Program-made: the position numbers and the translations under genes
The notes under the pieces: model-generated
Seen by the model: only the letters and a program-made list of their open reading frames with translations
What the model was told of the DNA's origin: nothing
The model's database searches: none
Assembly (NCBI RefSeq): GCF_001279005.1
Contig: NZ_LGCN01000085.1
Location: 1-64,000 of the forward strand
Direction: 5' to 3'
DNA length: 64,000 nt
Source of the DNA: Streptomyces caelestis
GTDB taxonomy: Bacteria > Actinomycetota > Actinomycetes > Streptomycetales > Streptomycetaceae
In this document: piece by piece, positions 46,841 to 56,279 of the stretch
How the letters are laid out: each line of letters begins with the position of its first letter
How positions within the stretch are numbered: position 1 is the first letter of the stretch

Positions 46841-46883
46841 GAGCCGCCTTCGGGATGCGAACCCGAGACCCACTCATGACGAG
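46841..46883 (-). repeat. Degenerate tRNA-Thr 3'-half copy (putative attachment site remnant)
   Basis: These 43 bases match 56205-56247 (the 3' half of the tRNA-Thr gene) at 39 positions; differences are at 46857, 46871, 46874 and 46878. The copy covers acceptor strand, T arm, variable loop and anticodon loop, and is in direct orientation with the intact gene. The 5' half is absent. This is the expected residue of integration into the tRNA 3' end. Confidence 0.8.
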
Positions 46884-47023
46884 AGCCCGCAGGATCGTGA
46901 CGGCCGGCCGTACTCGACCGGGGTTCGGGAGACGGTCCGCCGAAACCGCGCCCCGGGCCGCTCGCCCGCATCGCGCCCGCCCCCGAGTCGCTCGGGCTCC
47001 CTGCGGGTTCGCCCGCGGGTCGC

Positions 47024-48337
47024 TCACGCCGAGGCCAGCGCCTCCGTCGGGGGGAGCCGGGCCGCACGGAACGAGGGGTAGACCCCGGCCACCATGCCGA
47101 CCGCCACGGCACCGAGGCAGCCGGCCACGACCGAGGTCAGGGGGATCACCGACGGCCAGCCCTGATACGCCGCGTACCCGACGGCGGCGAGCACACCGAG
47201 CGCTGTCCCGGCGAGGGCGCCGAGCAGCGAGAGCGCCACCGACTCGGTGAAGAACTGGGCCCGTATCTGGCCCCGGGTCGCACCCAGCGCCCGACGGAGC
47301 CCGATCTCCCTACGGCGCTCCAGAACCGAGATGACCATGGTGTTGGCCACACCTATCCCACCGACCAGCAGGGCGACACCGGCCAGCCCGAGGAAGAGCG
47401 AGGAGAAGGAGTTCTGCGTGGCACGCTTGGCGGCCAGCGCATCGGACGGACGGCTGACCTGAACCTGTCCCGGCTGTTCCGGGAACACGGTGGCGGGCAG
47501 CACCTTCCGTACGTCCTCGAGGTGATCCTCCCCCGCCTTGACGTAGATCACCGTGGGGTTTCCCTTGAACCGCAGGGTGTTCTTGGCTGCGGTCCACCCC
47601 GTCAGCACGGCGACGTCGAGTTCCTCGGCCAGGGGTACGGAGCGGAGGATGCCGACGACGGTGAACCACGACCTGCCGATCCGTATCTCCGGAGCCGGCT
47701 CGTCGGCGGGAATCTCCCCGATACCGAGACGACTGGCCGCCTCGTAGCCCAGGACCGCGGTGGGAAACCGTTCATCGGCCTCGCTGAAGAACCTTCCCGA
47801 CAGGACCGTGCCCCCCACGACATCCAGGAGATCCCGCCGGGCCGCCAGAACACTCAGCCCCGCGCTGGAGAAGTCCTCCCCGGAGGTGACATCGGAACGC
47901 TGCACCTCCGTATTGGTGTTGGCCACCGCGCTCGCCCCGGTGACCGGCCCGATACGGCGCACCATGTCGACCGACCCCTCGGGCAGCAGGACCGGCTCGG
48001 ACTGCCCGGCGACCGGCTGCACCCGCAGCATGTTGGGACCCAACGCCGATATCTCCTCGATCAGCGCCCGGTGGCTGGAGGCCGGGATTCCCGTCACCAC
48101 CACCATCGTGGCGACACCGATGGAGATACCGAGCGCCGACAACGCGGCACGCATCTTGCGGGTCCGCAGGCCCAGCATGCCCAGACTCAGCAGATCCAGA
48201 AAGGCCAGCCGTACGGGCTTGACACTGCTCGTGGCGGACCCGCGCGAGCGCGGGGACACGGCAGTCGACCGCTGGGCGGAGAACGGCTCGGAGCGGGAGC
48301 GCTTGGAACGGGAGTGTTTGGAGGGGGTGGCTGTCAT
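47024..48337 (-). CDS. FtsX/MacB-like ABC transporter permease
   Basis: A 437-residue permease of the MacB/LolC class. After a basic Ser/Arg-rich N-terminus (1-40), a first membrane helix lies at about 62-82 (MRAALSALGISIGVATMVVV). A long extracytoplasmic MacB periplasmic-core-like domain (85-310) follows, then three helices: LFLGLAGVALLVGGIGVANTMV, SVALSLLGALAGTALGVL and VVAGCLGAVAVGMVAGVYPS. The coupling sequence ERRREIGLRRALGATRGQI is canonical. Such permeases act as mechanotransmitters rather than pores. ATG 48337 overlaps the ATPase stop (ATGA). Last gene of the four-gene operon. Confidence 0.93.
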   Translation of the reverse strand: MTATPSKHSRSKRSRSEPFSAQRSTAVSPRSRGSATSSVKPVRLAFLDLLSLGMLGLRTRKMRAALSALGISIGVATMVVVTGIPASSHRALIEEISALGPNMLRVQPVAGQSEPVLLPEGSVDMVRRIGPVTGASAVANTNTEVQRSDVTSGEDFSSAGLSVLAARRDLLDVVGGTVLSGRFFSEADERFPTAVLGYEAASRLGIGEIPADEPAPEIRIGRSWFTVVGILRSVPLAEELDVAVLTGWTAAKNTLRFKGNPTVIYVKAGEDHLEDVRKVLPATVFPEQPGQVQVSRPSDALAAKRATQNSFSSLFLGLAGVALLVGGIGVANTMVISVLERRREIGLRRALGATRGQIRAQFFTESVALSLLGALAGTALGVLAAVGYAAYQGWPSVIPLTSVVAGCLGAVAVGMVAGVYPSFRAARLPPTEALASA

Positions 48338-49023
48338 GTGAGGCTCTCGGTCAGTGCGGTGTCCGCGACCTTGTGGCCGTCGCGCATATGGACCCTGCGC
48401 GGCAACCGGTCGGCGATGTCCCGGTCGTGGGTGATGAGCGCGATCGTGGTGCCTGCCGCGTTGAGTTCGGTCAACAGGGCGAGCGCCGCCTCGCCGTTCG
48501 CCGTGTCGAGCGCGCCGGTCGGCTCGTCGGCCAGGACGAGGGCGGGCTCGTGGACGACTGCGCGGGCTATGGCAACCCGCTGGCGCTCGCCCCCGGAGAG
48601 CTGGTGAGGGAGATGGCCGGCGCGGTGTGCGAGACCGACACGGGCGAGGGCCTCCGCGGCCATCCGCTTGCGGTACTTGCGAGGCACGCCGGCATACAGC
48701 AGACCGGTCGCCACGTTCTCCGCCGCCGTGAGTCCGTCCGTCAGATGGAAATGCTGGAAGACGAAGCCCAGGCGCCGCCCGCGCAGGGCGGACAGTTCGC
48801 GGTCGGACAGCTCCGCCACGTCGTGCCCCTCGATGATCACACTGCCACTGGTCGGCCGGGCCAGTGTGCCCATGATGTTGAGCAGGGTGGACTTGCCCGA
48901 GCCGGAAGGGCCGAGGATCGCCAGCAGCTCGCCCTGCGCGACGGACAGGGACACACGGTCGAGGGCCCGTACCTCGGGCGGGTAGGTGACGCTGGCTTCC
49001 AGGACGCTGATGACCTCGGTCAT
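48334..49023 (-). CDS. MacB/LolD-type ABC transporter ATP-binding protein
   Basis: A 229-residue ATPase: Walker A GPSGSGKST (about 38-46), Q-loop FVFQHFHLTDGLTAAENV, signature LSGGERQRVAIARA, Walker B with LVLADEPTGALD and the H-loop TLITHD-like ALITHDRDIAD. This LolD/MacB group pairs with FtsX-like permeases. Its ATG overlaps the adaptor stop and its stop overlaps the permease start, so the three subunits are coupled in translation. Confidence 0.95.
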   Translation of the reverse strand: MTEVISVLEASVTYPPEVRALDRVSLSVAQGELLAILGPSGSGKSTLLNIMGTLARPTSGSVIIEGHDVAELSDRELSALRGRRLGFVFQHFHLTDGLTAAENVATGLLYAGVPRKYRKRMAAEALARVGLAHRAGHLPHQLSGGERQRVAIARAVVHEPALVLADEPTGALDTANGEAALALLTELNAAGTTIALITHDRDIADRLPRRVHMRDGHKVADTALTESLT

Positions 49024-55624: not shown

Positions 55625-56165
55625 CAACCAGAGTCCGCGTCGGCATCCGGCCCTGTGGAGGAGCGGATACCGGCGCCCTCAGCGCAAACGAAGGGCATGC
55701 CGAGTCGAGTCGACCGGAGTCGGCTCAGCAATAGGTGCGCCCCGCTTCCGCCTGGGACGACCCGCCCGTCAGGGATTCCTCGAGCAACCCGGACGCGGCC
55801 ACTACCAGAAACGGACTTAACGGCCTCTTTGGGCACTTGGCCCAGCCCACAAGCGGTCGCTGCACTCCCGCACGCAGCGAGGGACATGGCGGCCGACGGC
55901 GACCAGCAGGCCAGGGGAACAGCGACAGGCAGCTGCCGCTCAGAGGCTGCTTCCACGTGCCGGACCAGCACAGAAAGCCCTCCGGCCGGCTGCCCACCGG
56001 AGCAAGTGACCACTCGGTCACCGAAGGGCTCAACCGCACCAGAACTGCAGGTCAGAGCCTTGCCAAAACTCACGGGCAACAGCGAGACGAACCTGCGGCC
56101 TACACATTGAGTCGAACAGACCATAAGTGACCGATCTACCGTGCCATCACGGTCACCAAAAGAAA
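55625..56165. other. Gene-free or decayed end of island next to tRNA-Thr
   Basis: About 540 bases between the hydrolase and the tRNA terminator. Open frames on both strands exist, but none has recognisable domains, and the base composition is less GC-biased than real genes here. This is where an integrase would usually sit next to the tRNA; only decayed sequence is seen. Confidence 0.45.
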
Positions 56166-56198
56166 AACCCCAGGTCACGGGCTATGCGACCTGGGGTT
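56166..56198 (-). terminator. Intrinsic terminator of tRNA-Thr
   Basis: Arms AACCCCAGGTC (56166-56176) and GACCTGGGGTT (56188-56198) are fully complementary with an 11-base loop. On the minus strand the stem is followed by TTTTTCTTTT, a strong T-run. It starts five bases after the encoded CCA of the tRNA. Confidence 0.92.
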
Positions 56199-56205
56199 CC
56201 AATGG

Positions 56206-56279
56206 AGCCGCCTTCGGGATTCGAACCCGAGACCTACGCATTACGAGTGCGTTGCTCTGGCCATCTGAGCTAAGGCGGC
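56206..56279 (-). tRNA. tRNA-Thr (anticodon CGT)
   Basis: A 74-base tRNA on the minus strand, with CCA encoded at 56203-56205. Acceptor GCCGCCT pairs with AGGCGGC; D stem GCTC/GAGC; anticodon stem ACGCA/TGCGT around loop CTCGTAA with anticodon CGT (codon ACG); variable AGGTC; T stem TCGGG/CCCGA with loop TTCGAAT. All stems are complete. It marks the right edge of the putative island. Confidence 0.97.

Follow-up and report, generated by a model that had tools for sequence, protein, structure and literature searches.

Among the closest described systems, site-specific accretion and its decay products, the cis-mobilizable elements (CIMEs), are defined in the relevant sections of one account (PMC5704250), and accretion at tRNA-Arg is reported in the parts of another that deal with integration sites (PMC9513070). 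The corresponding passages of two papers name tRNA-Thr as a target of actinomycete integrative and conjugative elements (AICEs) and of integrative and conjugative elements (ICEs) in Streptomyces or other Actinobacteria, with pSE211-type integrases belonging to AICEs at tRNA-Thr (PMC3218068) and a family-13 AICE as well as an ICE placed there (PMC9513070); a section of a further report notes an element close to a tRNA-Thr (PMC10711302). For Streptomyces coelicolor, genomic islands absent from S. lividans have been described, including GI-2 (SCO3437-3506), for which the sections concerned note a 61-bp flanking repeat and no tRNA (PMC1934918). Our literature searches brought up no paper on integrase-less tRNA-Thr islands in Streptomyces, which is not proof that none exists. 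Here we analyse a 64,000-nucleotide stretch of Streptomyces caelestis (contig NZ_LGCN01000085.1, positions 1 to 64,000; hereafter the window), in which 9.3 kb of DNA lie between an intact tRNA-Thr gene and a displaced copy of its 3' half.

We believe, with a probability of about 0.9, that this 9.3-kb block is a genomic island that made a tyrosine-recombinase-type entry into the site of an older AICE-like element, and that what remains is most likely a fixed relic of the CIME-like kind. The repeat at its borders is unambiguous. The only tRNA that ARAGORN predicts in the window is the tRNA-Thr(CGT) gene, on the minus strand at 56203-56279 (Rfam RF00005, 69.5 bits), which would be the integration target and is also the only element above its curated threshold in a scan for Rfam-type RNAs. 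The displaced copy, presumably the far attachment site, occupies 46841-46886 in the same orientation and aligns to 56205-56250 with 89% identity over 46 bp (E=2.8e-10, query 46780-46900). When this query was searched against the organism's own 8,620,338-base assembly at E<=0.001, it matched only itself and tRNA-Thr. An earlier note on this DNA had counted 39 matches in 43 bases; the match is real, but its frame was one base over, and the 43-nt core from tRNA position 32 to the discriminator (46842-46884 in the copy) has five mismatches. The 5' half of the tRNA has no match at the copy (6 of 31 bases). As that note had also observed, each copy is followed by a hairpin on the tRNA strand, at 56166-56198 beside the intact gene (56160-56202 folds at -26.3 kcal/mol) and at 46802-46832 beside the displaced one (46796-46840 folds at -15.6 kcal/mol). 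Among the tRNA-Thr copies in the loci that we fetched, the encoded 3' CCA differs (CCA, CAG, CTG, CTC, CGG and others), and this variation apparently tracks the DNA that follows each copy.

Empty sites in near relatives support insertion. The left neighbour of the block is a ricin-B lectin gene (45160-46407, minus strand; Pfam), and a search with 44980-46740 at E<=1e-20 matched 47 of 392 genomes of the genus (own included), most lower-ranked matches covering part of the lectin gene only. Surroundings of this left flank were compared in five relatives, designated G334, G338, G306, G131 and G342. Long stretches of both flanks in the first two share 91-95% identity with the window (84-85% in the lectin gene), and both genomes have, in order, a polA-like gene, a glycosyltransferase gene, the lectin gene, an intact tRNA-Thr and a gene for a TAP-like hydrolase. 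The 9.3-kb block is absent from both, and on this comparison it is an insertion in the lineage of the window. Between the end of the main lectin-side homology and the 3' end of the tRNA lie about 207 bp in G334 and 103 bp in G338. In G306 and G131, about 3 kb and 4 kb of other DNA separate the lectin gene from tRNA-Thr, and in G342 the contig ends inside the tRNA with no lectin homology seen. Integration at the tRNA, different inserts in other strains and an uninterrupted lectin-tRNA arrangement had all been anticipated in the earlier note and are borne out, except that the terminator at the empty sites differs from the hairpin at 46802-46832. By eye, an ABC-transporter-like cluster is common to the lectin-tRNA-Thr intervals of G306 and G131 (L119:10702-13371 and L121:14115-16688).

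Base composition also changes at the borders, as had been expected of an island. In 500-base segments, with those spanning the borders excluded, GC content is 0.586-0.716 inside the block (47250-55999) and 0.688-0.814 outside it in the profile of 40000-62000; the two ranges touch, but the drop is clear. At third codon positions, GC content (GC3) falls from 0.91-0.97 in six flanking genes to 0.71-0.88 in six island genes, a set that does not include the response regulator described below.

Beyond the displaced copy lies what appears to be the trace of an older element. Positions 46750-46794 on the plus strand read as the last 14 codons of a tyrosine-integrase gene (DTRAARTRCRRRIR) followed by its stop. 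Here 43 of 54 bases match the end of the gene in G027, compared with at most 33 in 20 simulated 64-kb sequences. In five genomes (G027, G011, G013, G099 and G081), the DNA beside the intact tRNA-Thr is the end of a frame that finishes in the same arginine-rich tail (...RRIR) about 48 bp off. Three of these frames were scanned with Pfam: those of G027 and G011 are tyrosine integrases (PF00589), and that of G099 gave only an AAA match below its cut-off, so that the tail seems to be joined to another frame there. Given that genes for an HTH_17 protein, an FtsK/SpoIIIE-like protein (below the curated cut-off) and a DUF3631 protein lie near the G027 integrase gene, we call this element AICE-like. 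Since the tail is present in the window and absent at the empty sites of G334 and G338, an older element appears to have occupied the tRNA-Thr site first, which would be a case of accretion. The hairpin at 46802-46832 comes with the integrase-gene tail, so it would belong to the older element and not to the host site; its reading as the displaced original terminator of the tRNA does not hold. A displaced tRNA-Thr copy in G057 has, about 0.2 kb away, a PF00589 match with one stop codon (G057:C1:4308264-4308581), and an uninterrupted PF00589 match adjoins the tRNA-Thr itself. This similar layering makes G057 a likely second case of stacked elements.

The two ends of the island are also recognizable, each in a different way. 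At the far end, 46885-46907 on the minus strand appears to be the remnant of an element arm of type A. Over 46885-46902, 16 of 18 bases agree with the type-A arms of G067, G053 and G005, and 12-15 of 18 with those of G040, G014, G097, G041, G052 and G100; the two type-B arms agree at 9 of 18 bases and the one type-C arm compared at 5 of 16. Of 127,966 positions on both strands of the window, this one gives the single best match to the G067/G053 arm string, a string that was picked after the alignment had been seen. The arm breaks off at about 46907, where an exporter module starts.

The tRNA-proximal end, which we designate R2 (55824-56199), is conserved and apparently non-coding, and a codon-phase check of R2 gave no consistent coding signal. 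At 1e-6, 94 of the 392 genomes (own included) match 55625-56202; 19 others match R2 proper over more than 100 bp, and in the remaining 74 the match is limited to an 88-bp repeat, the terminator or some other short segment. This 88-bp stretch (55741-55828) is repeated in many Streptomyces genomes as well as at G000:C193:7185-7272, and it reads as the last 25 or so codons of a frame that, by eye, gives a winged-helix-like protein in one relative. Beside tRNA-Thr in G100, G056, G178 and G126, R2 is 86.6-88.4% identical to the window (summed BLAST segments), while the adjoining TAP-like gene is only 74.9-76.3% identical; the corresponding values in G116 are 80.5% and 75.1%. Because R2 is more alike than its core neighbour in those four genomes, it has travelled horizontally and separately from the core.

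One might argue instead that R2 is ancestral chromosomal DNA downstream of tRNA-Thr, with the insertion lying between R2 and the tRNA fragment. R2 does stand directly beside the intact tRNA in six of the eight loci compared, and in G316 it is 74.1% identical compared with 85.9% for the TAP-like gene, values in keeping with an older or vertical descent of non-coding sequence. Nevertheless, we judge this explanation very improbable given the similarity values of the four genomes above and the lack of R2 at the tRNA in the close relatives G334 and G338. Furthermore, in G019 R2 adjoins a displaced copy on a contig that does not contain the tRNA, and in G387 a 124-bp piece of it is found roughly 4 kb from the tRNA without a copy next to it.

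Relative to G100, G056 and G178, the R2 of the window lacks about 85 bp, including, as seen by eye, one of two CGGTGGACA repeats. With the far arm broken off as well, both ends of the island look damaged. A clean R2-ended island is found in G056 (L090:4898-17241; 12.3 kb), with a far copy that has one mismatch in 43. Its genes encode HlyIII, cold-shock, DEAD-box helicase, CBS, SpoIIE and STAS proteins, with no integrase match among them.

The search for a recombinase was largely a search for PF00589, which was the only family sought genome-wide; serine recombinases were covered by Pfam scans of the island proteins. The organism's own genome has 15 PF00589 matches at E<=1, and at this threshold there is none in the island region, as the earlier note had supposed, the nearest on the contig being 148 kb away. 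That note had allowed for an integrase decayed within 55625-56165. This stretch has no PF00589 match, the two open reading frames (ORFs) across it have no Pfam match, and it aligns with non-coding island ends elsewhere, so we reject the suggestion; the integrase relic lies outside the bracket, at 46750-46794. A tblastn comparison of relatives' proteins with the region was set aside since the matches listed are mostly noise. Screening with a motif for integrase catalytic regions gave no match, and a loosened version gave seven rows, four of them chance-like and three for two likely real sites (G071 twice, G041). The loosened search missed the Pfam-confirmed genes of G027 and G011 and is a poor test. 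We also considered a 184-aa protein encoded beside R2 in G100-type islands as a hidden recombinase, but its size argues against this role. It has 136 homologues, and among the 120 listed all are hypothetical or unlabelled bar a few labels ('HEAT repeat', for example), with no Pfam domain listed.

Twenty genomes carry R2, and all 12 that were checked (own included) are free of PF00589 matches within 8 kb of it. This was established at E<=0.01 on the available contigs of nine other genomes, the nearest match among them being a weak one, below cut-off, 8.6 kb from R2 in G370; the islands of G100 and G056 have no match at E<=0.001. Outside this check stand G019, G022, G085, G097, G141, G248, G350 and G387. 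Integrase matches do occur at this site in the genus. In four of ten genomes examined around tRNA-Thr, namely G057 and the type-A copy carriers G067, G053 and G052, a PF00589 match is found within 2 kb of the tRNA, at 0.35-1.7 kb. In five of the ten (G025, G040, G056, G079 and G100) there is none between the polA-like gene and the tRNA; the tenth, G005, has its polA-like match elsewhere and is counted in neither group.

These results invite a broader proposal, namely that R2-ended islands, with an R2 of 0.2-0.4 kb, form an integrase-less satellite family for tRNA-Thr in Streptomyces, consisting of cis-acting ends and variable cargo that are moved between species by the integrases of AICEs or ICEs, with the island of the window as a decayed member. 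This is a bold reading, and we consider it unlikely as matters stand. Integrase-less carriers with conserved ends do occur in several species: 11 of the 19 other R2 genomes, in addition to our own, have no PF00589 within 8 kb, R2 has moved between lineages, and the 12.3-kb G056 island combines a nearly perfect far copy with the lack of an integrase. G100 joins an A-like arm (12 of 18 bases shared with the window) to R2 and to other cargo, and the CGGTGGACA direct repeats in relatives' R2 resemble arm-type sites by eye. However, repeated independent loss of integrases would look alike, and the other eight of the 19 R2 genomes fall outside a check that was based genome-wide on PF00589. The single PF00589 match in the G100 genome at E<=0.001 contains a stop, hence there is no obvious helper now. 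In addition, the far arm of G056 is of type B rather than A, and the 124-bp R2 piece of G387 has no copy beside it. Should R2-ended islands indeed be mobilized in trans, a group of seemingly 'dead', integrase-less islands would turn out to be mobile.

The cargo of the block is a mosaic. An ABC exporter and two-component module spans 46908-53740, as defined by its identity to G072 (92.9%), G256 (91.0%) and G029 (90.2%), with homology starting at 46904-46908. On the minus strand it comprises genes for a MacB/FtsX-type permease (47024-48337; Pfam), an ABC ATPase of LolD/MacB type (48334-49023; Pfam, with best NCBIfam matches below their cut-offs), a 475-aa protein without a family match (49020-50447), which matches no solved structure at E<=0.1 either, and a 214-aa protein without a family match (50440-51084), whose homologues have, by eye, a lipoprotein-like start. 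Divergent from these, on the plus strand, are genes for an OmpR/PhoB-type response regulator (51231-51965, start inferred; Pfam Response_reg and Trans_reg_C at residues 168-400 of ORF 50742-51965) and a sensor histidine kinase (51955-53739; Pfam). In G072 and G029 the module is on another contig than tRNA-Thr, and no tRNA is found in the three 20-kb stretches that contain it in G072, G256 and G029. Given that the TAP-like gene of G072 and G029 is 75% identical while the module is 90-93% identical, the module was acquired horizontally, and it occurs away from tRNA-Thr too. By analogy with two-component-controlled MacB-type exporters, its probable role is to sense a toxic or envelope-active compound and to export it. 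The remaining gene, for an alpha/beta hydrolase (54014-55624, plus strand; Pfam), has counterparts of 82% DNA identity in G032 and G306, where they and tRNA-Thr are on separate contigs; its relatives in named genomes are 44-61% identical over the best segment. We rejected a defence function for the cargo, as PADLOC returned generic ATPase and kinase matches only (best mad3, E=1.7e-29, on the ABC ATPase).

The site itself is a hotspot that mobile elements have used repeatedly. Its conserved left anchor is the DNA polymerase A-family gene (42313-44004, plus strand; Pfam DNA_pol_A), region 42200-45170 being matched in 101 of 101 sampled genus genomes, mostly across this gene. The right anchor is the TAP-like alpha/beta hydrolase gene (56398-57990, minus strand; Pfam), with 56199-57990 matched in all 101. 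Both deserve the description of core flanks given in the earlier note, which fails for the lectin gene, since the latter is accessory in the genus (47 of 392 genomes), although it is the left neighbour of tRNA-Thr in the clade of the window. The glycosyltransferase family 2 gene (44073-44966, minus strand; Pfam) is variable within the hotspot, its matches forming separate blocks that are often elsewhere in the genome. Both anchors could be read in consistent orientation on a single contig in 66 of the 101 genomes (own included), and in these the polA-like gene stands between 1,152 bases (G092) and 244,237 bases (G079) from the tRNA, with a median of 20,488; the window, at 12,200, ranks 19th. 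The other 35 had anchor matches on separate contigs, inverted or elsewhere, or a right-hand match without the tRNA. Three genomes (G092, G026 and G077) have 2.3 kb or less in this interval, the ends of the polA-like gene being estimates for G026, G061 and G077. With such a span of lengths, the polA-tRNA-Thr interval would contribute much gene-content variation in the genus. The 244-kb interval of G079 (C1:4223005-4467242) has no PF00589 match between the anchors and six tRNA-Thr 3'-half matches among those listed, one of which (4467232) corresponds to the intact gene. It also contains a lectin gene, 70% identical, at 4359728-4360949. To judge by gene order, GI-2 of S. coelicolor may lie in the same interval, and its repeats might be 3' copies of tRNA-Thr.

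Copies of the tRNA across the genus also bear on whether the 43-bp match could be a tRNA pseudogene made by illegitimate duplication, with the intervening genes being ordinary accessory genes gathered independently. An imperfect copy and a mosaic cargo, parts of which occur at unrelated loci, would fit such an origin. Query 46700-46900 is matched in 88 of the 101 genomes, at one to eight places each including the intact tRNA (up to eight candidates were scored per genome). All 21 distinct truncated copies among the loci compared (the window's included), however, keep the 3' half, with 5' halves that match the tRNA at just 4-10 of 31 bases, as site-specific recombination predicts. Considering also the integrase-gene tail that flanks the window's copy and the existence of empty sites, which already disfavour such an origin, we give the pseudogene explanation scarcely any credence.

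On the island reading that we prefer, the history of the locus might have run as follows. Comparison of the relatives suggests a clade state in which the lectin gene stood close to tRNA-Thr (or came to do so after a loss, should the G306/G131 cluster be ancestral). The integrase tail then suggests integration of an AICE-like element at the tRNA, followed by a deletion that spared only the tail, its terminator and a tRNA 3' half. A second element, also suggested by the relatives, would have entered between the tRNA and this remnant by recombination across the anticodon-loop-to-3'-end part of the tRNA gene, so that its own 3' half restored the tRNA and 46841-46886 was left as the far copy. Later deletion and recombination would have broken the ends and replaced or trimmed the cargo, and the island either lost an integrase or never carried one. 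If so, one locus illustrates how accretion at a tRNA leaves layered relics, with an integrase-gene tail and a tRNA 3' half marking a vanished element.

Several points weigh against this account. The displaced copy has 5 mismatches in 43, so either the insertion is not recent or the copy has drifted. The empty site was seen in just two of the five relatives fetched for the left flank, and the cluster of G306 and G131 may be ancestral and lost from G334 and G338. By tblastn with six proteins of relatives, the integrase tail on its own gave E=0.02-0.04, no better than chance matches (down to 0.001), and it is the DNA match and the position that argue for it. Most of 46553-46745 resembles neither the ancestral flank nor a recognizable element, although G334 matches 46646-46706 weakly over 62 bp, and this obliges us to postulate a deletion. 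The A arm and R2 could derive from two elements merged by deletion. Finally, because no recombinase gene is present, the enzyme has to be inferred.

Set beside known systems, the block shares with tRNA-targeted islands its position 3' of an intact tRNA, the direct copy of the tRNA 3' part, the foreign GC and GC3, and the empty sites in G334 and G338; a site-specific recombinase of its own, often lost in decayed islands, is lacking. An integrative and mobilizable element would have its own integrase, of which no PF00589 match or Pfam-detected serine recombinase gives a sign, and the int, tra and rep genes of an AICE are likewise absent among the island proteins scanned. The AICEs and ICEs at tRNA-Thr, as the relevant passages describe them (PMC3218068, PMC9513070), likewise target a tRNA-Thr, and in genomes related to the window an integrase does lie beside this tRNA; in contrast to them, the island has no integrase, transfer or replication gene, and the isoacceptor is not given in those passages. 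The S. coelicolor islands are alike in lower GC, direct repeats and position at a tRNA 3' end, although the six that are linked to tRNAs in the sections concerned use Arg, Ser, Tyr and Pro tRNAs and not Thr (PMC1934918). The closest likeness is to CIMEs as characterized in the pertinent sections of their definition (PMC5704250): attachment-site copies (attL and attR) are kept on either side, genes for integration or transfer were not found, and the island stands in tandem with what is left of another element at a single tRNA site, even though its arms look damaged and no intact element adjoins it. The best label is therefore a decayed CIME-like island in a hotspot of a known kind. The island itself is an ordinary, damaged example, and what is less ordinary is its recurrent, horizontally moving R2 end without an integrase.

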